A DNA stretch of 64,000 nucleotides from Thysanoteuthis rhombus (taxonomy: Eukaryota; Mollusca; Cephalopoda; Oegopsida; Thysanoteuthidae), in NCBI GenBank assembly GCA_963457665.1, contig OY735209.1, positions 10,518,314-10,582,313 of the forward strand, read 5' to 3'. This document shows, piece by piece, positions 13,066 through 59,800 of this stretch. The notes below the pieces were generated by a model. That model was given only the letters and a program-made list of their open reading frames with translations, was not told the DNA's origin and searched no databases. Position numbers and translations under genes: made by a program. Position 1 is the first letter of the stretch. Each line of letters opens with the position of its first letter.

Positions 13066-15000
13066 GATCACATACGAGGCCGATGTGAGGCCGATGCTAG
13101 CAAAATACAAGATAGATGAACTAGACAAATTCAGAAAATACTGGCTCTGTGACGCCCATGATAGAGAAATGTGGCGTATCTTGGGGATGGTCTGTGTCCA
13201 ATGACGGACATTAAAAGACTGATGATGATGAGGATGTAAAAGATGCAATCCATACAAGGCTGAAAGACCAACAAAAAACATTTTTTTCTCTGAAGGTATA
13301 TACCAAAGTAAGGGGACTATATTGAAAAATAATGCATTTGTAAGTTCTGCACTGTTAATCCTAATAAACTATTATATCAAAAGTGAAGATAATTATCGCC
13401 TCACACTTGTGCATTACACATAAAGTGAGATGTGATATAATAAAATATGGTATATGTTTGGCTCGTTTGTCTTTATTGTATCAAACAGATTTTTTTTTAA
13501 TGTGCCTCATGAGGTTCCAAACATGAATCATGAGAAAAATATAAAAGCATAATTTAAGACAATGTTCTCAACAGTGAATTCACAAGAGAATTTTTCATGC
13601 CAAACAACCTCAAAAAGTTTCCAATATATATCAGGATACAAATGCAGATCAAAAAACATGTCTTTAGTCAAATTACTTGATTTAAGTTTGGAAGGTGAAT
13701 TGAGTATAATTAATTAGACGCAAGGATATGAGGAAGTTTGATCTATAGGCAGTGAAAGCCAGTCTTTGCAAACATTATCTCAATAAAATTAAATGCCCAC
13801 ATTTTGCACATTATTCCTTCCTTTCCAGAGTGTGCTTCTATATGTTGCACTAAAGCTAACTCCTACGGAAGATAAAGATCCACATATTTCACAAGAATAT
13901 ACAGATATCCTTTGATATTTGCAGGTTTTCTACTTGCAGATTCAATAATTAACGGAGAATTATTTCGAGAGTTTTGCGGCATACCATGAAAAGCCACGTC
14001 ATGGAATAAACGCTGTGCAATATGAACAAAACATAAGTTTAAGAACATTCAGAAAAATCATAAATGTATCGTGATAATATTTTTTTTTTCAATCTGTAGA
14101 CAATATAAACCCCAGTTGGAAACTTGAACTTGCTCAATGTTTACACTTGTGAACTGATTAGTTAAACAGTATTTGAGACATTAAATTTTCTAATTTGCTA
14201 TGCTGTGAACAGATTTATTCATTTTCCAACAGATGAAGTATCATAAATTATTATTAACAATTTTTTCATTGTTATGCTACTGTTAAATTCAATTTAATAT
14301 TTTTGTTGCTTTTTATCGCAACTTTTCTCAGACTGGATGAAATTTCTAAAATATCAAGATGAACCTAAATTGTTGCATAAAAAAAAAAAGGAAAAATTGT
14401 TTGTGTTTTTTTCCACTAGCATCTACAGAGCATAGTTTAAATGATCATTCAAAATGCACTGCAATAATCAAATATCTTTCTTCAAAAGTTTTATTAAGGT
14501 TATAACTGCAAGAAAATGGCTTAAAATTGATCATAAGAAAGAGAAAAATACTGTTGCGTACTCACACAGGATTCAAGCAGATAAGGGCTATTTTTATGTT
14601 TTTGACTGAAAAAAATATCTATATGGATCCCTCACCAAAAACAATGGAGACAAGTTTGAAAATTGAAAATTTTTTACAGTAGGCTTTGCTGTATTCATTT
14701 ATTTATTCGCACATTTACATTTGGTGATGGTGAAAGAATGTTTATCAATTGTTTATGGTATAAGATTTATGGATCCACCAAAAAAATTTAAACCATGGAT
14801 TTTTGTATTCTTGGTCCCCTGGTGCCCCCAACACCTGCAAATAGCAAGGGATAACTGTAGTTTATAGTCAATGCATATCCTGATGCGTGTTATTAAATTA
14901 TCTGAAAATGACTATGATAGTATGGGTCCTCTCGAGTGCATATTTGCTAGTTGCATAAAATTCAACTTTCAGGAAAAAAATGATCATCAATTAAGATTAA
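13066..15000. other. Non-coding interval, nothing recognised
   Basis: AT-rich DNA between the mariner relic and the decayed 3' part of ZNF-A. Only short frames occur. Confidence 0.5.
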
Positions 15001-15356
15001 TAGATTTTCTTTGCAGAGTATATTTGCATATGTTCCACCAATTTTAACTTCAATAGAAAAGAAAATCTTAGCTGGATTTCTTTTCAGTGTGCGTCTGCAT
15101 ATATTAGTAAGGATGAAGATCCACACATTTAGCAAGAATGTGGTTTATCACCAGTGTGTTCTTCACATATGTTGTATCAAATGGGTTTGGGGGAAAAAAG
15201 AAAATTCACACATTTTACACAAATATTGTTTCACCTATGTTCCACTAAATTGGACTTAAATGGAAAGGAATATCCACGCACTTTGCTAAGATATAGTTTC
15301 TCTCTAATATGAGTTTGTACATGTTATACTGAATGTGACTTCAATATAAAAGACTA
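15000..15356 (-). pseudogene. Decayed zinc fingers beyond the ZNF-A stop codon
   Basis: The 84-bp finger periodicity continues on the minus strand past the TAG stop at 15357-15359 for about four more units. Linker remnants such as HTGDKPH (near 15160) and finger-core remnants such as LKSHSV are visible. They are broken by stops and frameshifts. The functional protein therefore ends inside an older, longer array. Confidence 0.8.
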
Positions 15357-18300
15357 CTAACCGCACCCTTCTGAAGACTTTGGCTTCTCTCCTTCGTGTG
15401 TTTTCATATGTTCCTCTAAATTGGATTTCAATGTAAAAGATGAGCTACACACTTCACAAGAAAATGATTTCACTCTATTGTGTATTCGCATGTGTTGTTT
15501 CAAATTTGACTTCTTTGAAAAGGAAGAGCCACACACTTCACAAGAATATGGTTTCTCACCAGTGTGTGTTTGCATATGTTGCGCTAAAGTTGAATTCTGG
15601 GCAAAAGAAAATCCACATACTCCACAGGAATATGGTTTCTCTCCAGTATGTGTTCGCTTATGCCGCCTTAAATTCGTCTTCAGTGAAAAGGCAGCGTTAC
15701 ACACTTCGCAAGAATATGGTTTCTCTCCAGTATGTGTTCGATTATGTTTCACTAAATTAGAAGAAGATGCAAAGGAAGATCCACACACTTTGCAAGAATA
15801 AGGTTTTTCTCCAGTGTGTGCTCGTGTATGATATCTTAAATGTGACTTAGATGTAAAAGATAAGGCACAAACATCACATGAATATGGTCTGTAACCGGTA
15901 TGTGTTTGTGTATGATATATTAAATGTGACTTCTGTGAAAAGCACATATCACAAAGTTCACAGGAATACGGTTTCTCTCCAGTGTGTTTTCGCATATGCT
16001 TGACCAAATTGGTCTTCAATGCAAAACATGACTTACACACTTCACAAGAATATGGTTTCTCTCCAGTATGTGTTCGTGTATGATATACTAAATGTGACTT
16101 TGACGTAAAAGATGAGCCACACACTCCACAAGAATATGGTTTCTCTCCAGTATGTGTTCGCTTATGATGTACTAAATGTGTCTTCTGTGAAAAGGATTTG
16201 TTACATACATCACAAGTATATGGTTTTTCTCCTGTGTGTGTTCGCATATGTTTCACTAAATTGGACTTTAATGTAAAACATGAGTCGCATACTTGGCAAG
16301 AAAATGGTTTCTCTCCAGTGTGTGTTCGCATATGTTCTCTTAAACTGGACTTTGTTGAAAAGGAAGATCCACACTCAGTGCAAGGATGTGGCTTTTCTCC
16401 AGTATGTGTTCGCATATGTTGCGTCAGATGTGACTTCAATTTAAAACATGACCCACATACTTCACAAGGATATGGTTTCTCTCCAATAAGTATTTTCATA
16501 GGTTGCACTAAAAGTGATTCGCATGTTTTTTCTTTCTCAGCAGTGTCTGCTTGTGTATGCGGCGACAAATTTGGCTTCTCAGAAGAGGAAGATGCACATG
16601 CCTCCCCAGTTTGTATCTCTGATTTCTCTGGAAATGCAGAGTCACTCTCATCATAGGCAGATGGGGGCTTCTCTCCAGAGTCAGTTGTGGAGAGTTGGTT
16701 CAACGTTGAATTAGTTGAAGATGTAGACTTACTCTCTCCAGAAGCATATGGCGGCTTCACTCCAGTATTGGTGAGAGAGTCTGTATTTACTGAATCAGTT
16801 GAAAATGTAGATGCATTCTCTTCATAAGCATATGCTATCTTCTCTCCAGTATCAGTTGGGGAGTCTGTATTTAACATAGAATTAGTTGAAAATGCAGATC
16901 CACTCTCTCTATAAGCATGTGTTGTCTTCTCTCCAGGGTCAGTTAGAGAGTCTGCAGTTACCGAATTAGTTGAAAATGCAGGTCCACTCTCTCTACAAGC
17001 ATGCGTTGTCTTCTCTCCGGGGTCAGTTAGGGAGTCTGAATTTACCAAATTAGTTGAAAATGCAGGTCCACTCTCTCTATAAGCATGTGTTGTTTTCTCT
17101 CCAGGGTCAGTTAGGGAGTCTGCAGTTACCGAATTAGTTGAAAATGCAGGTCCACTCTCGCTATAAGCATGTGTTGTTTTCTCTCGATGGTCAGTTAGAG
17201 AATCTGAATTTACCGAATTAGTTGTAAATGCAGGTCCACTCCCTCTATAAGCATGTGTTGTTTTCTCTCTATGGTCAGTTAGAGAGTCTGTATTAACCAA
17301 ATTAGTTGAAAATGCAGGTCCACTCTCTCTATAAGCATGTGTTGTCTTCTCCCCAGGGTCAGTTAGGGAGTCTGCATTTACTGAATTAGTTGAAAATGCA
17401 GGTCCACTCTCTCTATAAGTATGAGTTGTTTTCTCTCCATGGTCAGTTAGAGAGTCTGTATTAATCGAATTAGTTGAAAATGCAGGTCCACTCTCTCTAT
17501 AAGCATGTGTTGTCTTCTCCCCAGGGTCAGTTAGGGAGTCTGCATTTACTGAATTAGTTGAATATGCAGGTCCACTCTCTCTATAAGTATGAGTTGTTTT
17601 CTCTCTAGGGTCTGTTAGGGAGTCTGTATTTACTGAATTAGTAGAAAATGCTGATTCCCTTTCTCCATAACTAAAAGACTGCTTCTCTGTGTCAGTTGGG
17701 GAGTGTCTGTTTAACATTGAATGATTTGGAAATGTGGGTCCACTCTCTCCATAAGAATATCGCTGCTTCTCTCGACTGTCAGTTGGGGAGGGTCTGTTCA
17801 ACATTGAATCATTTGGAAATGCAGACCCACCCTCTCCATAAGCATACGGCCGATTCTCTCCAGCATCAGTCGAGGGATGTCTGTTCAACATTGAATTATT
17901 TGAAAACGCAGATGCACTCTCTCCGTAAGCGTACACCCGCTTCTCTCGACTGTCGGTTGGGATGGGTCTGTTTAACATTGAATTATTTGAAAATGCAGAC
18001 CCACCCTCTCCATAAGCATATCGCCGCTTCTCTCCAGTGTCAGCCATAGCGTCTGTATTTAACATTGAGGTATTTGAAAATGCAGATCCCCTCCCTCCAT
18101 AAGCATATGTCGGTTTCTCTCCAGTGTCAGTTGGGGAAGGTCTGTTTAACATTGAATTATTTGAAAATCCTGATCCACTCTCTCCATAGAGATATCGCCG
18201 ATTCTCTCTTATGTCAGTTAGGGAGTCCGCGTACACTGAATTGGTTGAAAATGCCGATCCACTTCCACCATAAATATATGGTCGCTTCTCTCCCATGTTA

Positions 18301-18902
18301 GTTGGTGAGGGTCTGTTTAACATTGGATTAGTTGAAAAGGTAGATCCACTTTCTCCGTAAGCATATGGGGGCTTCTCCCCACTGTCAGTTGAGGGGTGCT
18401 TGTTCAACATTGAACTATTCGAAAATGCAGATGCGCTATCTCCGTAAGCATATCGCTGCTTCTCTCTAGGGTCATTTAGGGCATCTTTATTCAACATTGA
18501 ATTAGTTGAAAATAAGGATCCACTTTCTCCATAAGCATATGGTGGCTTCTCCCCAGTGTCAGTTAGGGGATGTCTGTTCAACATTAAATTACTTGCAAAC
18601 GTAGATCCTCTCTCTCCATAACCATATGGTAGCTTCTCTCCGCCATCAGTGGGGGAGTGTCTGTTTAACATTGTATTATTTGAAAATGCAGATGCGCTAT
18701 CTCCGTAAGCATATCGCCGCTTCTCTCTAGGGTCAGTCGGAGAGTCTGTATTTAACATTGAATTACTTGAAAATGTAGACCCTCTCTCTGCATAGACATG
18801 CGGTGGCTTCTCTCCTGTGTCAATAAGGGAGTGTCTGTTTAACATTGAATTAGTTAAAAATGCAGATCGACAAATATCAGATGGATATTTTTTTTCAGTC
18901 AT
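15357..18902 (-). CDS. ZNF-A: C2H2 zinc-finger protein with a giant degenerate-finger N-terminal array
   Basis: The protein has 1181 residues from the ATG at 18900-18902 and lies in one exon. That Met is chosen because the same M-T-E-K-K-Y start occurs in the paralogue at 34443; the frame stays open further upstream, but there is no earlier ATG in the exon. Residues 1-764 form about 27 finger-derived units without zinc ligands. Residues 765-806 are a spacer shared with ZNF-B. Residues 807-1170 are 13 consecutive 28-residue C2H2 fingers with TGEKPYSC linkers, and residues 1171-1181 start a 14th finger cut off by TAG. The finger array predicts a nuclear, sequence-specific nucleic-acid-binding protein; no effector domain (KRAB, BTB, SCAN) is visible. 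Predicted contact residues (-1,2,3,6) are LSHQ, TSSE, LSNK, QTHH, SSHY, LTNK, QSHY, SSHY, SSNK, LTNR, QSTQ, KSNQ, LSNE. The open frame over more than 3.5 kb argues for a live gene. Its target is unknown. Confidence 0.9.
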   Translation of the reverse strand: MTEKKYPSDICRSAFLTNSMLNRHSLIDTGEKPPHVYAERGSTFSSNSMLNTDSPTDPREKRRYAYGDSASAFSNNTMLNRHSPTDGGEKLPYGYGERGSTFASNLMLNRHPLTDTGEKPPYAYGESGSLFSTNSMLNKDALNDPREKQRYAYGDSASAFSNSSMLNKHPSTDSGEKPPYAYGESGSTFSTNPMLNRPSPTNMGEKRPYIYGGSGSAFSTNSVYADSLTDIRENRRYLYGESGSGFSNNSMLNRPSPTDTGEKPTYAYGGRGSAFSNTSMLNTDAMADTGEKRRYAYGEGGSAFSNNSMLNRPIPTDSREKRVYAYGESASAFSNNSMLNRHPSTDAGENRPYAYGEGGSAFPNDSMLNRPSPTDSREKQRYSYGESGPTFPNHSMLNRHSPTDTEKQSFSYGERESAFSTNSVNTDSLTDPREKTTHTYRESGPAYSTNSVNADSLTDPGEKTTHAYRESGPAFSTNSINTDSLTDHGEKTTHTYRESGPAFSTNSVNADSLTDPGEKTTHAYRESGPAFSTNLVNTDSLTDHREKTTHAYRGSGPAFTTNSVNSDSLTDHREKTTHAYSESGPAFSTNSVTADSLTDPGEKTTHAYRESGPAFSTNLVNSDSLTDPGEKTTHACRESGPAFSTNSVTADSLTDPGEKTTHAYRESGSAFSTNSMLNTDSPTDTGEKIAYAYEENASTFSTDSVNTDSLTNTGVKPPYASGESKSTSSTNSTLNQLSTTDSGEKPPSAYDESDSAFPEKSEIQTGEACASSSSEKPNLSPHTQADTAEKEKTCESLLVQPMKILIGEKPYPCEVCGSCFKLKSHLTQHMRTHTGEKPHPCTECGSSFSTKSSLREHMRTHTGEKPFSCQVCDSCFTLKSNLVKHMRTHTGEKPYTCDVCNKSFSQKTHLVHHKRTHTGEKPYSCGVCGSSFTSKSHLVYHTRTHTGEKPYSCEVCKSCFALKTNLVKHMRKHTGEKPYSCELCDMCFSQKSHLIYHTQTHTGYRPYSCDVCALSFTSKSHLRYHTRAHTGEKPYSCKVCGSSFASSSNLVKHNRTHTGEKPYSCEVCNAAFSLKTNLRRHKRTHTGEKPYSCGVCGFSFAQNSTLAQHMQTHTGEKPYSCEVCGSSFSKKSNLKQHMRIHNRVKSFSCEVCSSSFTLKSNLEEHMKTHEGEKPKSSEGCG
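15393..16484 (-). repeat. ZNF-A: 13 intact tandem C2H2 fingers
   Basis: Every unit is C-x2-C-x3-F-x5-L-x2-H-x3-H with a 7-residue linker, 84 bp per unit. Finger 8 has a divergent linker (TGYRP), and finger 13 follows H-N-R-V-K-S-F instead of H-T-G-E-K-P-Y. Confidence 0.95.
16611..18902 (-). repeat. 27-unit in-frame array of zinc-ligand-less finger repeats
   Basis: Each unit has 27-29 residues (81-87 bp) and reads roughly T-G-E-K-P-P-Y-A-Y-G-E-S-G-S, then F-S-T-N-S-M-L-N-R-H, then S-P-T-D. Aligned to an intact finger, the linker TGEKP, the core Phe and Leu and the spacing are kept. The first Cys is Tyr, the second is Ser, the first His is kept or changed to Pro/Asp, and the last His is Asp. 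Units 1-14 and 24 are mostly 29 residues with MLN. Units 15-23 are mostly 28 residues with VN. No stop or frameshift occurs in 2.3 kb. The first unit still has one Cys, in the segment S-D-I-C-R-S. Confidence 0.95.
16938..17609 (-). repeat. Homogenised sub-block (units 16-23) with 168-bp dimer periodicity
   Basis: Eight units of exactly 28 residues with the core E-K-T-T-H-A-Y-R-E-S-G-P-A-F differ at only a few positions. The start (P-G-E-K or H-R/G-E-K) and end (V-N-T-D or V-N-A-D) residues tend to alternate, which gives a two-unit higher-order repeat, clearest in units 16-20. This is the most recently amplified part of the array. Confidence 0.85.
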
Positions 18903-19459
18903 TTTTTTCACTTTTTCACACGAGTAGTCACTTGTAAAATTTCAATTCATCCGAGTTTACAATGTTAAGAAATGATTTTCATAATGGTAAAAGGCTGGAA
19001 AAAAAAAAGAAAGAGAATTTTTAAAATGACATAAGAATTGAACATTTTTCATCAAAACAAGTTTGTTCTAATAAAATACAATAAAAGCCAACAGATAACA
19101 GCAGAAGCCAACAGATAACAGCAGAAAATAATTATTAGACTTTGATTGGAGAAAAACTATAACTGAACCAAAACATACACATGGCCTAGACTTTAGTACG
19201 AATAATGATCTGATATTTTCAAAGAACATGGCTACAGCATTGAAAAAAATATCAGTCTCTAGTCGGCTTGATAGACAGGACTTGAATCTAGGGATGAGAA
19301 AGCGAATGGCTCTACTGGAATAAATGAAAAGGAATTCAAAAATTATTTGCCTTCAATATAAAGGATATACAACATCTAAACTACTGGCAATTTTACAGTA
19401 TCTGAGGTAATATTCTATCAGAAGAATACTATTCTGTTATCAATACAAGGAAAATCATT

Positions 19460-22067: not shown

Positions 22068-22290
22068 CTTTCAAATGAAAAATTCTATCGGGAAACTAAA
22101 AGCCAAAAAAAAAACTGTCTCTGTTTTCAAGTGCTTTTCGAATTTGATCGGTTTGGCCGGATTTTTCGGTCAATTCCTCACAATTTCTCTATTGTTCGTT
22201 CAATAATGTTAAAGTTGAAAAGAATGACGGAAAGAAACCAGAATTAACAAACGATTCAAACGTCAAAATATTTCGTTTGATGACAAAATA
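22068..22290 (-). promoter_or_regulatory. ZNF-A exon 1 (non-coding) and core promoter region
   Basis: The minus-strand sequence here aligns with 32690-32852 upstream of ZNF-B: a shared 'TTTGACGTTT.ATCGTTTGTT' block, the segment ACATTATTGAACGAAC, a CCGA/CCAA stretch, and the donor end TTGAAAG|GT(A/G)AGT. The transcription start cannot be placed exactly. No ATG begins a long frame, so the exon is taken as 5' UTR. Confidence 0.55.
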
Positions 22291-23300
22291 ACAAAGGAAA
22301 TCTTCAAGCGGTGAAGAAAATAATTTGGTCCCTTTTAAAGAAAGGGATCGTCGGATCGTTCTTTCTGTCAATCAGTCATTTGAAAATTCACAAAGATTTC
22401 ACTGCTTCTTGCTGCAAAAATTATCGAAAATGTTCGTATTTGCTATAAAATAGAAGACTCCATTCTTAAAAGATTTCTTTTGCTAAATGTTCAGAAATCC
22501 GGTGAAGAGAAAACCCAGTTTTGCACACATGACTGAACCGAAATAACAAAAATGCTATTTCAATAAAATTCAAGAACAGCTTTTTAATGAAATTTCAATA
22601 TTCTTCTTTCATAGATGAATCAATCACCTATTTACAATAAATACTATAGTTATCGGTAATTCTTGCTTATTCGGGACTGAAAAACTTTAGCTATAAAAAA
22701 TGGCTACTTCCGTTTAATTTCAGCAATATAGAAACTTCTGTAGAACTTTTACGATAGTTGTTATGATGATTTTAATGTTACTGACGTAGGGGTAATCAAA
22801 AAAAAAATATTTCAGAAATTGAATTTTTAGAAATAGAAACAAAACAAAACAATTAAACAAACAATCTTTGCGTAATGAAAGAACAATATTCTAAGTCAAA
22901 TTAGAAACAAAGTGAATTATTTCAGTTATATTATTTATTTTAAAGAAAGTATTTTATTTCATCATTATGTGAGGAAACTAAGAATATAGAAATTATATGG
23001 ATGCGTGTCAAAAGTTGATTAGGACGATAGTTTACCGAAAAAAATCTATTTGAAGTCAAAGTTAAACGGAAGTAGCTATACGGCTAAATTAGCCATTTTC
23101 TAGCTATGGTTTTCTCAGTCCCAAAGAAGTAAAGTTATACAGCTTGGTCAAAAAAGAATTTTTTTAGAGTAGTTTTGGTGCCGCTATACACTTTAAAGCA
23201 GAAAAGCAGGTGAACATAGCGTTTTCAACTTTTGTTAAAGAACTAATTTCCAGCTGACACCGTATTTCCTTGCAAAGGAGCTAAGGTTTTATTTTCGTAT
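22291..23300 (-). promoter_or_regulatory. Upstream flank shared with ZNF-B, interrupted by an inverted-repeat element
   Basis: Blocks on the minus strand match ZNF-B upstream sequence in order: 'TCCGACGATCCC' versus 'TCCGACCATCCT'; 'GGATTTCTGAACAT' versus 'GGATTTCTAAATAT'; 'TTCTTGAATTTTATTG' versus 'TCCTTAAATTTTATTA'; 'CACCAAAACTACT' versus 'TACCAAAACTACT'. The element at 22668-23125 splits the match and is absent from the ZNF-B side. Confidence 0.6.
22668..23125. mobile_element. MITE-like element with inverted ends in the ZNF-A upstream region
   Basis: The left end reads GGGACTGAAAAACTTTAGCT and later GGCTACTTCCGTTTAA. The reverse complement of the right end reads GGGACTGAGAAAACCATAGC and later TAGCTACTTCCGTTTAA. 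The ends are about 50-75 bp, separated by about 330 bp with no open frame. A related single end sits near 21600-21640 ('AGCCATTAAAAATGGC'). No clear target-site duplication is seen. Confidence 0.55.
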
Positions 23301-26640: not shown

Positions 26641-26759
26641 ATTCTTTTTTTTCTCCTTTCCTTTCCCCGTTGAAGGAAGAAAAATTTACCATAACATCTC
26701 ATTTTTGTTTGATAATTTATGCTCTCTGTACCAAAACAGAAAAATTCCTAACATTTATT

Positions 26760-27330
26760 TATCATTTTATCCAAACGCTATACCATATTTCTTTCTCAAA
26801 AACCATCACATTTATACTCTCTCCAAACACTGTATAAAATTCATTCTCTTCCCAAGTACTATATCACAATTATACTCAATTCAAACATGATATCACATTT
26901 ATTATCTTTCCAAACACTATATCACATTTAATCTTTATCCTGACAATATATCATATGTATTCCCTATCCCTCTATATCACATTAAGACTCTATCCAAACA
27001 CTATAACACATTTATACTCCATCCAAACATTATATGAAATTTATTCTCTATCCAAACTCTATATCACATTTAATCTTTATCCTGACAATATATCATATGT
27101 ATTCCCTATCCCTCTATATCACATTAAGACTCTATCCAAACACTATAACACATTTATACTCCATCCAAACATTATATGAAATTTATTCTCTATCCAAACT
27201 CTATATCACATTATTTTTCTACTCAAAACACTATATCACATCTATACTGTATCCAAACACTATATCACATCTATTATCTTTCCAAACAATATATCACAAC
27301 CATTTTCCATCCAAACTATATTACAGGTTG
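26760..27330. repeat. 28-29 bp minisatellite with a perfect 142-bp internal duplication
   Basis: The basic unit is close to CACTATATCACATTTATACT plus CTATCCAAA. Around 19 units vary at several bases. The segment 26921-27062 is repeated without any difference that I can find at 27063-27204. The frame crossing it encodes Tyr/Pro/Asn/Ile/His repeats and is a by-product. Confidence 0.9.
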
Positions 27331-32852: not shown

Positions 32853-34363
32853 GTGAGTTGAAAAACATAAATAGTAATAAATATTCCTGAATTTTATTGT
32901 TTACAAAGTTTCATGTAAATACCATTTTGAAAAATATGGACAATATTTAATATTTTTTAATTTTATCGTTTAAAAACTTTTATATAAATACTACTTGGCA
33001 CCCGGAACTTTTGACGAAAAAAGGGATGTGTGGCGGGAAAAACTTATATAAGAATTATCTTTTTTGTAAGACACCTTCCCTATTCGTAAAAACAAATTAC
33101 AAATTTTGGGGGGTCAAATTTTTTTTTTTTTTTCCATGTTTAAAACTGGTGAATTTTCTCTTTGAAAAAGTTGTTCGCCTAATGTAAAATATGGGGAGGA
33201 ATATTTTGCATCTAGTGAATATTTATGCAAAATACGCATATTTTAAAATTCTTCCAAAAATCAAATAATTGTTTTATTTCCATGAGTATTTTGATGTCTT
33301 TGATTATGGAATGCATATTTTTTAGGAAAAATGAGAGAATTTTCTTTTCAAATCAATTACCCCTTCCCCCTTATTTAATTTTATAAAATCTCTTATATAT
33401 TGTGAATAAAAGAAAAATTCAGGGAATGATGAAATTCAATACCTAGAACAGTTTTTTTGTTTTGTTTTGGCTGTTTGTAATAGCTTATTTCAAATAGAAT
33501 GTATTGTAGACTTCAAGATTATACAAGGAAAGTAAATATTTCTTTTTTTTTAGACTTCCAGAACAACATAAAATTTCCTACTTTTGCTTAAAATGAAAAA
33601 ATAAGCAACAGATTTACAGCAGATGGTGTAGTTTTGAAATATCTTTTAATCCCTCTGTCTCGAATTTAATATCAAGTATAAAACTATTGCATATTCATTG
33701 ATTTCATTACAAAATTATCAATGCCACTCTTACTTACTTAAATTGTATATTATTTCGACAGATTATTGTAACTGTATTAAAAGCCAGTTTCTAACTGATT
33801 TGCCACTAAGCAAATGACCCCATACCTTGAATTATATTGACATCTTAGAGAAATTTAGTAATTTGATAATTTTGTTTTGAGTTAAAAGAATATCATGGTA
33901 GTTAGGCTAATTAGTGATGCAATGCCAGCTCCTATAGTTTGACAATGGATTTACCAAAATCGTACAGTCATTCCTGCTTGGACAGTATTTATTTGAGAAT
34001 AGTTAGCTGAGGTGCTCACTCACACTTATTGTTCTCTATCCACCATTGTGGCATGCCAGATATGAGGATTTCTTTGTTAGGATATCTGGTGATGGCACAG
34101 AATATAGGTATGTTGATTCATACCTTCATTAAGAGCATTGCTGCTGTGTGAACGTAAGCAGCCTCACCTAAAATTTGAATCTGGTTTACTGTTCTACTAT
34201 TCTATGTTGATAAGCAGTAGGCTACCCAGCACCTCCTCTTCTAATGCTAGATATTTGCAGAAAATTTAATCGTGCATGGTTCGGGTGAACTGAAACTGAG
34301 TCTGCGCAATTTATTTGTTGAATTCATACATCATTTCTTGAATTATTTCTATTTTTCTTTCAG
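32853..34363 (+). other. ZNF-B 5' UTR intron
   Basis: GT-AG intron of 1511 bp, from GTGAGT to CTATTTTTCTTTCAG. The position and flanking exon sequence match the ZNF-A intron. It starts with one to two units of the same AT-rich tandem repeat (32875-33010). Confidence 0.7.
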
Positions 34364-34442
34364 CATTACCAGCATGAAGATCATTTGTTTACATTGTAAA
34401 CTTGAGTGAACATTAGTGACTTCACAGGAGAAAACCTGAAGA

Positions 34443-35984
34443 ATGACTGAAAAGAAATATTCACCTGAGATTTGTGAATCTACATTTTCAACCAATTCAA
34501 TGATAAGCAGACATTCCCCGAATGATTCTGCAGAGAAGCCATCATATTCTTCTGAGGAGAGTGGATCAGGGTTTTCAGAGAAATCAGGGATCCAAACTGG
34601 AGAAGTGTGTGAACGTATCTTTCCGGAAAAGCCAAATTTGTTGAAACATACACATGTACACTCAGGTGAGGAAGAAAAACCATGCGAATCACATTTGGCA
34701 CAACAAGTGAAAGTAAATACTGGAAAGAAACAATATACGTGTGAAGTATGTGGCTCCTCCTTTAAATTGGAGTCACATTTGGCACAACATACATTAACAC
34801 ATACCGGAAAGAAACAATATTCTTGTAGAGTGTGCAGTTCATCTTTTGCATCGAGGTCACAATTAGTATATCATAGACAAACACATACTGGACAGAAACC
34901 ATATTCGTGTGAAGTATGTGGATCATCTTTTCCTCAAAAAACAAATTTGGTGCGACATATGCGAAGACACACTGGAAAGAAACCCTATTCTTGTGAAGTG
35001 TGTGGCTCATCTTTTATGTCAAAGTCACATTTAGTATATCATACACGAACACACACTGGAGAAAAACCATATTCTTGTGAAATGTGTGGATCATTTTTTA
35101 CATTGAAGTCACATTTAGTACAGCATACGCGAACACATACTGGAGAGAAACCATATCCTTGCAAAATGTGCAAATCCTCCTTTCGATCAAAGTCCAATCT
35201 AGTGGAACATATGCGAACACATACTGGAGAGAGACCATATTCTTGTGATGTTTGTGATGCTTCCTTTTCACAGAAGTCACATTTGGTATATCATGCACGT
35301 ACACATACTGGAGAAAAGCCATATTCTTGTGAGGTGTGTGAAATTTCCTTTTCCCGGAAATCCTCTTTGGTGCCTCATATGCGAACACACACTGGAGAGA
35401 AACCATATTTATGTGATGTGTGCAAGTCATCTTTTACATTGAAGTCCAATTTAGTGACACATATGCGAACACATACTGGAGAGAAACCATATTCTTGTGA
35501 AGTTTGTGACACTTCCTTCTCACAAAAGTCACATTTAGTATCTCATACACGAACACATACTGGGGAGAAACCATATTCTTGTGAAGTGTGTGGCTCATCT
35601 TTTACATCAGAGTCATATTTGGTATATCATACACGAGCACACACTGGAGAAAAACCATATCTTTGTAAAGAGTGTGGATCTTTTTTTGCCTCTACATCTA
35701 ATTTAGTGGAACATATGCGAACACACACTGGAGAGAAACCATATTCTTGTGAAGTGTGTAGTGCTGCCTTTTCACAGAAGTCAAATTTGAGACGTCATAA
35801 ACGAACACATACTGGAGAGAAACCATATCCTTGTGGGGTGTGTAAATTTTCTTTTTCCCAGAGATCAACGTTAGTGCGACATATACGAACACACACTGGA
35901 GAGAAACCATATCTCTGTGAAGTGTGTGGGTCATCTTTTACCTTGAATTCCAACTTGGTGAAACATATGCAAATACACACTTGA
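34443..35984 (+). CDS. ZNF-B: C2H2 zinc-finger protein, 15 fingers
   Basis: Single coding exon, 513 residues. The ATG at 34443 is the first in frame after the inferred acceptor at 34363 and matches the ZNF-A start. Residues 1-51 are two finger-like units without proper ligands, equivalent to units 1 and 27 of ZNF-A. Residues 52-93 are a spacer with Cys-containing remnants. Residues 94-513 are 15 uninterrupted 28-residue C2H2 fingers. Predicted contact residues (-1,2,3,6) are LSHQ, SSQY, QTNR, SSHY, LSHQ, SSNE, QSHY, RSSP, LSNT, QSHS, SSYY, SSNE, QSNR, QSTR, LSNK. No effector domain is seen. The array predicts a nuclear nucleic-acid-binding protein of unknown target. The TGA stop replaces the Gly codon (GGA) of what would be the next linker, so a single G-to-T change appears to have shortened the protein. 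Confidence 0.93.
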
Positions 35985-37060
35985 GAGAAACTACAATCAT
36001 GTGAAGTGTTAGGGTCATCTTTTCTATTATGTCCAAATTAGTCAAACATGTGAACATGCACTTGAGAAAAGCCATATTCTGGAGAAGTATGCTGTTCATA
36101 TTTTACATTGACATCACATCTAGTATAACATGCACAAACACATACTGGAGAGAAACCTTATCTTTACGAAATGTGTACATCTTCCTTTCCATTTATTTTT
36201 GATTTGATGGAACATTTATGAACACATTTTTCACAGGAATGATATTCATGTAAAGGGACATCTTTTACCATGAAGTCACATTTAGTACAACATATAAGAA
36301 CATACATGGGAGAAAAATATCCTCATCAAGGGTGTGGATCTTCATTTTCATAAAAATCATATTTGGTGCTACATACCCGAAGACATACTGGAGAGGATCT
36401 ATATTCTTGCAAGTCTTCTACATTGAAGTTTCATTTAGTGCAGGTTATATGAATACACTGGAGAGAAAGAATATTCCAATGAAGAGTAGCGGTCATCTTA
36501 CCAGTAACATCACATTTAATAAAGTATACACAAACATATACCGGAAAGAGACCACTTTCTTGTGAAATGTATGAAATTTCATTTTCTCAGAAAACGCATT
36601 TGGTACTACAAATTCAAAAGCCAACTGGTGATAAACCACACTCTGGACAAATGTGTGGTTCTTCATTCTCATGAAAGTCACTTTTGTTGCAATACATACA
36701 GACACATACTGGAGAGAAACCATATCCTTGTGAAGTGGGTAGATTTTCTTTTCCATTGAAGTTAAAATTAGTGTTACATATGCTAACAGACACTGCAGAG
36801 AAAACATGTTCATCTAGATAGTAGATTATTATTTTTCTGGAAGTCAAATTTAGCGAAACTTGTGAACGCGCACTTCAGGGAAACCATAATATCATGATAA
36901 GTGGAGATTTTCATTTCCAGATAATTTACCAACCAACCTCAGGATACATATTGACTATAAACTATATTCTTGTGATGTATGCGGATCTCCATTTTTCATT
37001 GGAAAGTTAGATTTGGTGCATCACATGGGAACACACCCTTGGAAGAGAAGAATAACGTGT
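35985..37060 (+). pseudogene. Decayed zinc fingers beyond the ZNF-B stop codon
   Basis: About 12 more finger-length units follow, with recognisable HTGEKP-type linkers (for example near 36136-36160, 36380-36400, 36700-36725) but with lost Cys/His, stops and frameshifts. Decay increases with distance. This may serve as a long 3' UTR. A possible poly(A) signal AATAAA lies near 37367, not otherwise supported. Confidence 0.85.
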
Positions 37061-37699
37061 AGAATATAGACATTCATTTTTGTTGAGATTAAGTTTGTGT
37101 TCTAAAATAGTACATACATACTAGCTGTACCTTTTTTTTAGATCTATGTATGTGCTATTGTATTTAGAAACATCAGATTCTAATTAAAATTTTACGTTAT
37201 AATTTGCATTTTCATGTGATTCATACTGGAAATCTTACAGAGTAACATTTTCAAATATGAATAATTCAATAAGAAACAACCCAAACATATTTCATATTTT
37301 ATTATTTCATTATGTATATTATCTCAAATTTGCTGTTTTTGTAGAGTGTTCAGGACCACAGCAGGAAATAAAGAGGGAATGTGTTGTAAAAACTAGAAAA
37401 TAGATATTTCAGCTGGTACTTTAGGTACAAAAATGTCTGTTAGGATGGTCAGGGTTCAGGTGTGACTTTTGTGAAGAATGCATCAAAGTATTAGTTATGG
37501 AAGTATTTGTATACCTCTCTTCCAACAGAAATGTGTGTTGCGGCATGGTAATGGCCACGCAGCATATAAGTAAACATGCAAGTTGAAGTTAATATGGATA
37601 CCATAAAGACAAGTGGCTTGATCAGAGGTCTGAGATGGTCTGTCTGTTTAAACTGTTACATGCATTTGTTAAATAAATATCCAGATATTAACTTAGCAT

Positions 37700-56800: not shown

Positions 56801-59800
56801 TACACAACACGCAAAGAAGGGCTGTCAAAGACTTGTATTAAATTTGAGTCATACATACATATCTACGTTGCCAGCCAGCCATACTAACTTGGAAACTGAA
56901 ATTACCTATGGTGACAGTTTTAGTGCAAATGGGGCACTTGCTCTCCCCTTGGATCGGGCCTTCTCACCCAGGGCAAGGGAGTTGAAAAGTTGAAGCCTTA
57001 TAGACGTCAGATCAAGGATCACTATGATCAGCGACAGCTGAGGATGAGCCACAGTTTGGGCACTCTCTAGTCCCTTATTTGACAACAGACATTAGGATAA
57101 GTCTTTTTGTACCCCACCCTGAAAATATCATCTTGCTACCCTACCAACCCCACCTGAAATTTATCCTTTTGTTCATCCCTGGAAGAGTGGCAGTGGTTTG
57201 GAGTGTACTGGACTCTGCCACTGAAGGCAGTGACTGCTCTATGGGTTTTAGTACGCAACATGCAAAGAAGGGCTGTCTAAGAATTGTATTAAATTTGAGT
57301 CATACGTACATACATAGCCAGCCAGACTTTCTCAAAAACTGAAGAAACCTATGGTGACAGTTTTGGTTGATGTTTCAAATAAGATGTTTGTACAGAAAAT
57401 TCTGTATGAATTGTGTTGTCTTCATCATTTTTTTTCGTTACACTTATTACTGAAATGCTTTTTTCTTGCAGAATCCATTATCCCCTCCCACTGCATTTCA
57501 AAGAAAAGTCAAACGCTATTTCTTTACAAGAAACGGTTGTCAAGCTACGAACAGAAATCAAACAACTAAAAGAAGAGGTAATTTATTTATTTTGTTTTTT
57601 TTTTTTCTCAATTCTTCTTATGCTTTTCTTTCATGAAATGCTGGAAATGTAAAGAAATTATCCACATGTATAAAACACAATCCATGTTTACATATTCAGC
57701 CTTACTGCCTGTCCAGTTCCATGGTCCAGAGGTAGAATATCGGCCTACGGGTGAAGGTTTCAATTCTGCCTCGCAGTACTGGATGGGATGATGGAAAGTC
57801 TATAGCCACACTGAAGAGATGTAATACATCGAAACAGCTGTCTGTGGATGACACAATAATATATATATATATATATATATGTATATATGTGTGTGTATAT
57901 ATATGTATATTATATGAAAGAGGAGGTGGTATTTGATCCATACTTCCAAGGAGCCATGGTGGAACAGCAATATTGTTTTTAATTTTCTGAAATTCGTAAT
58001 TTTTGTATTAATACAGAAACAAGTCGGTAAGATCATTAGTTCTTACGACAGTAAAGATGTATAGACTATATATTGAGGTATCCTTCCACATGTCTGGGTA
58101 CTTTCCTGGTACCAAAAGTACTGAGGCTTTTGAATTAATCTAAGTTAACAACCAAATTATAAGAACATCATAACTTGAGAGGGGGGTGGTATTTGATCCA
58201 TACTGCCAGAGACCCATGGTGGAAAAGTAATACTTCTGTTCCATGTGTGCACAGCACTCGATTTTTGAACAGATTTGGCTCTTGTAGAGGTATAACAGTG
58301 TTTTGTATTAGAAACCAGGTAAAAAGATCCTAACGTTCTAGCCAAATCATTCTATTTTTCTCCTTGAGATTTTTGTTTCTCAACAATTTATTTGGATAAT
58401 ATGTAACCAGAAATTTTCTTCCATCATGAATAATTCTGTTTTGTCATACAATTCTATAGATGACCATTTTTATTTATTTTTTTTTTTTCTACTTTTTAGA
58501 TGAAAAATAATAAGTTTGCGGATTTTGACAAGCTACGAAGAGAGTAAGTACAAGATTAGTTTTATCATTACACGTTTCATGTTAGTCTCCTTCATAAATT
58601 TTATCTTAATATATTTTGGATCTGGATTTCTAATTTTCTCAACTATTAATATTATCATTAGAAGAAGTAAATATCCATTCATATATATAATATATATACA
58701 GAGAGATGAGAATTTGGGTTGAAAGCAGTTATTTAGGCCTTTGCATTACCAGCGGCTATTTAGCTCAATGGTAAGAGCATAGCTACGGTGAAGCAGCTAC
58801 CCTATCTGTGGCTGGTTCGATTCCTGCAACATCCCCATTTTCTTCAATTATTTATTCTATTTGAGTTGTCTAGGTTGAATGATATATCAACCGTGTAATA
58901 ACAGAAGATCACTTCAAATAAGTTTTTATATGATATAAGGCAATTTATTATTCATTTATATAATATATGTATTTTTGCGTAACACTAGTGAGCAAACACG
59001 TACTACTCTCTGATCTAGTGATGGAGTGACTCTTTGATCCGAGGCAGAGCACACCAATATCCTGATCCTTGGTAGAATTGCAAATCCATACGTAAATAAT
59101 CCTGTTATTTTTATGTGTACTACACTAATAATAATATAAAATTCGAGGAATTGTTTGATGTGATAGAAAAAAATTTTACTATAGGTTCATGCTGAGAATA
59201 TAAGAATTGTAGAGTTTTCATAAGTTTTTTTTCCATATTTTCATCATAATTTTATTTGCATTTTAGGAGTTTATGTATGTAGTTTAATTTGCATTGAACA
59301 ATGTAATTAAATATTCATCTGTTTTAATGATTAAATAACAAGGAATTATTTCTTACTAACATTTATTCAGTTATAAGTTAAATCATTTCATACATTATTA
59401 AATGGCCTTTGACATAAAGATAGATATTTTCCCTTTTCATTCATAATTGAAGACCCCTCAACTTTCAAAAAGAAATACAACATTTAACATTTGCCTTCTT
59501 TTTTCTTGAAATGTAACAACAAAAAAACAGGCCACTGTCAAATTGTTGACATTTTACCCTTGAAGTCTACGGTTGCTATTTAGTTATAGATGGCAGTAGA
59601 TCAAATGTAAACTTTTAAAACTATCCTTCATTTTTCCCCAATCTCCTATTTGTTATTGTTTTTGCAAATAATTGGGTTAGTAGCAATAGAATCATCTTTG
59701 TTTTTTGTTGTTTTATTTAATTTTTTTTTTATTAAAAATCTACCTCTTCTTTCAGGTACATTTTGCTTTTATGACTCTTTCCACTTATTTTCCTTAGCCT

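Follow-up and report, generated by a model that had tools for sequence, protein, structure and literature searches.

What becomes of zinc fingers once they have lost the residues that hold zinc, and can such a run of repeats be kept as protein? The question is raised by gene A, which we found in a 64-kb window (the whole stretch of DNA analysed, in whose coordinates gene A, its array and the neighbouring gene B are placed) on contig OY735209.1 of the cephalopod Thysanoteuthis rhombus (assembly GCA_963457665.1). Ahead of 13 live C2H2 fingers, gene A carries a long tandem array of dead, finger-derived units, and the initial annotation of the window, made from the sequence alone, proposed that this array is retained as protein. 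We consider the chances about even that the array forms a disordered, copy-number-variable arm that is kept as protein in front of the DNA-binding domain.

Finger-derived units and the module they grew from

Gene A as a whole is a C2H2 zinc-finger protein, with 13 fingers of the C-x2-C-x12-H-x3-H pattern, connected by TGEKP-like linkers and seen as 13 stretches of Pfam PF00096 (expectation value, E, 1.8e-59). Its first 764 residues contain nothing above the Pfam cut-off, the best match being zf-H2C2_2 (E 0.14, 13 bits against a cut-off of 40), and finger counts made with motif models overlook such regions. A Pfam scan of the 1181-residue frame, with E allowed up to 1, showed no KRAB family match. 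The typical unit, PPYAYGESGSAFSxNSMLNRHSPTDTGEK, aligns with a live finger at every position. When the whole array was searched against the PDB with phmmer, every one of the 12 matches with an E of 0.01 or less was a C2H2 finger protein, the best being ZNF568 (3.6e-22). Residues 408-764, the C-terminal half, gave 13 rows when E was allowed to reach 1. Finger proteins made up the top six, all with an E of 1e-6 or lower, and the seven weaker rows (E 0.04 to 0.75) were two finger proteins and five others, namely a fimbrial adhesin and four noelin rows. By alignment and search, the array units are descended from C2H2 fingers and are not chance resemblances.

Full units are 28-29 residues long, partial unit 27 has 15 residues and lacks the His half, and the first four residues of the protein precede the array. 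At the place of the first Cys (Cys1) we find Tyr in 24 of the 27 units, Ser in two and Cys in one, and at that of the second (Cys2) Ser in 19, Arg in four, Gly in two, Asn in one and Cys in one. The first His (His1) is retained in 6 of the 26 full units, and the second (His2) has become Asp in 24 and Asn in two. Twenty units have no ligand left, six have one and one has two; none of the 27 units scored has the two Cys and two His of a C2H2 finger. Both the ligand-less array and its recurrent substitutions are thus as the initial annotation described them. It had also described the core Phe and Leu and the spacing as surviving, which holds for Phe (24 of 26 full units) and only in part for Leu: the Leu place holds Leu in only 15 full units (Val in 10, Ile in one) because 11 units carry a one-codon deletion beside it.

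The frame of gene A opens at an ATG at position 18902 and has no internal stop. Across the array there are 0 stops in the coding frame versus 27-72 in each of the other five frames. Neutral simulations started from group consensus sequences, with two mutation models, gave means of 7.8 and 10.3 stops, with 1 and 0 stop-free runs per 1000, and simulation along the unit tree from five existing starting units gave 9-14 stops, with 0, 0, 1, 2 and 1 stop-free runs per 1000. The finger DNA beyond the stop codons is full of breaks in frame 0, as had been stated (11 stops in 507 bases in A, 14 in 1082 bases in B), and is an unfair control since it is untranslated as read.

The array does not stand alone. 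Searching the whole genome assembly (2.73 Gb, 514 contigs) with A's array led to genes C, D and E, and uniqueness was rejected when the same N-terminal module was read in these paralogues and in gene B; other dead arrays occur in gene F, described below. A search with D's module gave about 20 family loci among the matches listed (12 on contig C12, 6-7 on C47 and one on C17), which were picked out by reading from a list that also contains many ordinary finger matches. In six read loci of the approximately 20 (A-E together with L043 at C47:12650k) we found one common layout, with an MTE-unit 1 start, one or more dead units, a spacer and then live fingers.

When the full units of A-E were placed in a midpoint-rooted tree, drawn without node-support figures, unit 1 of all five genes formed one clade and C02 paired with D02. 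Young units group by gene (A units 16-24, C units 8-12), demonstrating gene-specific expansion in A and C, and some placements are mixed (A26 with D04, E02 beside C units). From the homology of unit 1 in five genes and the gene-wise clustering of young units it follows that a dead finger came first and that the expansions were separate; the family probably inherited its dead module from an ancestor, and A and C later enlarged theirs independently. The earlier proposal that ligand loss came before amplification stands insofar as Cys1 and His2 are both missing from unit 1 of all five genes, but the loss was incomplete, with Cys2 retained in units C05, E02 and E03. The synonymous divergence (dS) of unit pairs, with a median of 0.51, overlaps the module dS between A and B, 0.48, so A's array may alternatively have grown before the A-B split and been lost in B.

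Constraint, predicted disorder and rival explanations

Pairwise ratios of nonsynonymous to synonymous substitution (omega, Nei-Gojobori) between A units were 0.37-0.54 across four groupings, and the best omega by codon-model likelihood was ~0.5-0.6 (about 0.55). Compared with an omega of 1, twice the difference in log-likelihood was 16.7 for all 26 units (p 4e-5), 11.9 for units 2-14 (p 6e-4) and 4.5 for units 15-25 (p 0.03). The initial annotation had named a ratio near 1 as a sign against retention, and the observed value is below it. Purifying selection between array units is real but modest. Tyr at the Cys1 place is retained in 23 of 25 units in A (units 2-26) and in 12 of 12 in C (units 2-13), and the core Phe in 23 of 25 and 11 of 12, respectively. 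The codons of kept residues vary synonymously (Tyr at Cys1, TAT 19 and TAC 4; Asp at His2, GAC 21 and GAT 3). Among genes A, B, C and D the module has an omega of 0.35-0.57.

For units 11-13 of A, the one triple modelled, AlphaFold2 returned a mean predicted local distance difference test score (pLDDT) of 48.8, zero secondary structure and no beta-beta-alpha fold; the alignment was made of 23 overlapping unit triples, with units 15-25 entering as rows only. A live-finger triple under matched treatment (22 rows from A and B) gave a pLDDT of 91.9 and three helices. The lack of a fold is predicted only, but it agrees with the flexibility first suggested for the array, and the arm is probably disordered. 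Composition fits the first description, a Ser/Tyr/Gly/Asn-rich domain, only in part; the array is rather Ser/Thr-rich (16% Ser, 12% Thr), 22% charged and slightly acidic, with a net charge per residue of -0.033 versus +0.071 for the live fingers. Its aromatic residues (8.9%, compared with 8.2% in the live fingers) are regularly spaced. Charge-hydropathy places the array on the disordered side (0.383 vs 0.425) and the live fingers as well (0.413 vs 0.439), so this crude measure does not discriminate between them.

If the arm is kept as protein, A's module would have expanded to 27 units, probably via unequal exchange, to give a ~750-residue, probably disordered tandem-repeat arm before 13 fingers that are still expected to bind DNA. 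The live fingers would position the protein on DNA, and the arm, being flexible, repetitive and weakly acidic with Tyr and Phe at regular intervals, could offer a multivalent interaction or effector surface for self-association or recruitment, or could act as a spacer. We infer each of these functional steps, together with the transcription of A and disorder of the arm in cells.

The best-surviving alternative is that the array is a passenger, in which dead N-terminal fingers are tolerated ballast multiplied by unequal exchange, and selection merely holds the frame open for the downstream live fingers with mild pressure against harmful residues. We take this to be a serious possibility, if short of a probable one, and a number of observations that weigh against a kept arm fall on its side. 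The live fingers can be reached only by reading through the array, so keeping the frame needs no function of the array itself, and we rejected the argument that a lack of stops proves the array to be wanted. An array free of stops and frameshifts counts for little in itself because the 13 live fingers, too, would be lost with any break; of the earlier argument from frame integrity, the unbroken frame and its rarity in neutral runs remain, but such a frame is expected at this position. Constraint on the array is weaker than on A's live fingers (omega ~0.55 vs about 0.35, range 0.3-0.4, with twice the log-likelihood difference from omega 1 at 31.3). Individual columns are conserved weakly beyond neutral: of 500 neutral runs, the counts were 3 for E28, 7 for F12, 17 for D25, 22 for K29, 44 for N19 and 47 for Tyr at the Cys1 place, and 1 for M17, scored in the 15 units having it, leaving only E28, F12, D25 and M17 at 17 of 500 or fewer, which is weak given 29 columns. 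In D, the three middle full units retain Phe in one and Tyr in two; copy number ranges from 2 to 27 across paralogues; and, among the eight finger loci examined first, at least one (L007) has dead N-terminal finger remnants recognizable by eye.

The selection estimates themselves have further weak points. Module omega for pairs with gene E is 0.55-0.89, that among C's units is 0.57-0.63 as a point estimate without a test against 1, and recombination among units violates the single-tree assumption of the selection tests. Additionally, CK2-type phosphosites (Ser/Thr-x-x-Asp/Glu) were rejected as a feature of the array, in which 24 such sites stand against a shuffle mean of 25.7, with no excess. 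What counts against mere ballast is that the array omega is significantly below 1, that Tyr and Phe are mostly retained in both the A and the C arrays, and that the module matches as many loci as it does among those listed.

A role at the RNA level would be an unlikely explanation. The finger-derived repeats would then act in the mRNA, for example by keeping it in the nucleus with a short poly(A) tail, as described for canonical, degenerate and 3′ untranslated finger sequences of human ZNF12. There the precedent is experimental: as described for ZNF12 reporters, those with just the degenerate fingers of the 5′ open reading frame, or just the dead fingers of the 3′ untranslated region, were found mainly in the nucleus and showed weak binding to oligo(dT) (PMC6242934). 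Genes A and B resemble the ZNF12 layout in having dead N-terminal units, live fingers and dead finger DNA after the stop. However, selection on the array was detected at the amino-acid level, an RNA element would require neither an open frame nor a fixed Tyr, and the precedent is limited to human cells and other sequences.

Array units that fold as structured modules, zinc-free or with partners, are very improbable, since AlphaFold2 predicts the modelled triple to be unfolded and the former helix is one residue shorter in 11 of the 26 units, although the core Phe, the linker Glu-Lys and the spacing largely persist. Adenosine-to-inosine (A-to-I) RNA editing is common in cephalopods. As a rescue of the fingers it was set aside: it could turn Tyr into Cys at the first ligand, but could not make Cys or His from the usual Ser and Asp codons.

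Layout of the locus and other finger genes

Table 1. Features of the dead-finger genes. Positions are window coordinates except for the last row, which gives a contig position; unit counts of paralogues include the terminal partial unit.
Feature	Position	Strand	Remarks
Gene A coding sequence	15357..18902	-	1181 residues in what reads as a single coding exon; the dead-finger array comes first, then the spacer and 13 live C2H2 fingers
Dead-finger array	16623..18890	-	residues 5-760; 26 full and one partial unit without the zinc-ligand set
Unit 1	18807..18890	-	28 residues; keeps Cys2 and His1; forms a clade with the first units of paralogues B-E
Units 2-14	17682..18806	-	mainly 29-residue type (Y-A-Y-G-E-S-G-S-A-F...); block of greater divergence
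Units 15-25	16755..17681	-	mainly 28-residue type (T-T-H-A-Y-R-E-S-G-P-A-F...); less diverged block, like units in alternating pairs
Unit 26 and partial terminal unit 27	16623..16754	-	unit 27 is the counterpart of B's terminal partial unit
Spacer	16476..16622	-	49 residues; further decayed finger remnants; aligns with spacer of paralogues B-E
Live finger array of A	15384..16475	-	residues 810-1173; 13 intact C2H2 fingers
Decayed finger DNA beyond stop codon of A	14858..15356	-
Start-codon flank of A	18804..19044	-	74% identity to B 34316-34541; splice-acceptor-like AG at 18995-18996
Candidate non-coding first exon of A	22068..22363	-	73% identity to B across 22121-22363
Gene B	34443..35984	+	513 residues; 15 live fingers preceded by the same N-terminal module, which here holds one full dead unit and one partial; arranged head-to-head with A
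Decayed finger DNA beyond stop codon of B	35985..37066	+
Gene C (L033)			14 dead units, 18 live fingers
Gene D (L034)			5 dead units, 14 live fingers
Gene E (L035)			3 dead units, 21 live fingers
L043	C47:12650480-12651370		four dead units, five live fingers, then a second dead block begins

Genes A and B share their spacer and fingers and are alike in the start-codon flank (74%) and the candidate first exon (73%); the donor-like site AAAG/GTAAGT of A's candidate exon is conserved as AAAG/GTGAGT in B. The decayed tails beyond both stops (14858-15356 (-) and 35985-37066 (+)) run for ~6 to 13 finger-lengths. Because A and B both trail such DNA past the stop, the comparison suggests that their ancestor had a longer live finger array. 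Twenty 10-kb pieces covering the 100 kb to either side of the window, three of them with 5000 N each, contained neither a finger motif nor a match to A. Elsewhere in the window, 26757-27325 is internally repetitive, with self-matches of 72-82% at offsets of ~87-281 bases, and 58754-58835 (+) has a weak transfer RNA match (31.4 bits vs a cut-off of 29, E 0.013), possibly a short interspersed nuclear element. In L043, the dead module appears to recur beyond the five live fingers.

Gene F (L036, C12:4758500-4764000), picked for its long frame, has at least 1525 residues within the piece read and two dead runs of another kind. Its N-terminal run of 11 units keeps Cys1 and His2 and has lost Cys2 and mostly His1, with an omega of 0.35 (scored on 9 of the 11). 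Between live fingers lies an internal run of 14 units that has mostly Phe at Cys1, mostly Ser at Cys2, Ser in place of the core Phe and the His mostly kept, with an omega of 0.74. Because different ligands were lost in F's arrays and in those of A-E, we infer from the sequences that the two types arose independently. At C9:15530108-15531241, within a 1071-residue frame, F's N-terminal dead run has a relative with 56-58% identity. Altogether, among 11 long-frame loci (L029-L032 and L036-L042), a part of the long frames listed, one has homogeneous dead arrays (F) and one has scattered dead fingers (L041); L037 and L039 show a few degenerate stretches. In L041 (C17:56395500-56399000), live fingers alternate with ligand-deficient ones, often with the first Cys gone.

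The dead-finger arm is thus a family feature, grown on more than one occasion and possibly with a new purpose. A wider proposal, which we put forward tentatively and think somewhat doubtful, is that this lineage repeatedly converts fingers to disordered repeat domains by ligand loss, amplification through unequal exchange and selection for a copy-number-variable effector arm. If true, it would describe a route from a DNA-binding module to a low-complexity domain, taken in at least two C2H2 gene groups (the A-E type and F). Poly-zinc-finger genes are known for rapid change in DNA-binding specificity, and if the arms are functional such genes would also gain a fast route to new effector domains from recycled dead fingers. 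The six read members form a natural series of 2, 3, 4, 5, 14 and 27 units in which to ask whether a transcription factor is tuned by how long its disordered arm is.

Comparison with known systems

Low-complexity domains of the FET type are disordered, carry spaced aromatic residues and occur in transcription and RNA-binding factors. In composition only, the arm of gene A resembles them, with Tyr and Phe regularly spaced in a Ser/Gly/Asn/Thr-rich background; it differs from these domains in being more charged (22%), Thr-rich and finger-derived.

Among C2H2 genes, lineage-specific groups are described for the cephalopod expansions of this superfamily (PMC12513265), to which A's family probably belongs; the main text of that paper does not contain the terms "degenerate", "non-canonical", "N-terminal" or "linker". 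The cyprinid FiNZ-ZNF family is defined by a short, lineage-specific, Glu-rich N-terminal segment of 28 residues (PMC10547256), and A's family is likewise marked by a lineage-specific N-terminal segment. Compared by description only, the two differ in that the FiNZ segment is reported to be unlike known domains, with no tandem array described in the text drawn on here (PMC10547256), whereas the module of A is finger-derived. In a search of the open-access literature we found no published case of a dead-finger array that had been amplified.

Individual degenerate fingers are commonplace by the account in PMC2865497: mammalian KRAB-ZNF genes of the 8q24.3 cluster carry them in their coding finger region, and degenerate finger DNA also follows the stop codon. 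Gene A is like these genes and human ZNF12, as they are described, in having both degenerate coding fingers and finger remnants beyond the stop. However, theirs are single degenerate motifs, or rows of them among complete ones, whereas gene A has amplified a dead unit to 27 copies, and its ligand positions carry newly common Tyr, Ser and Asp.

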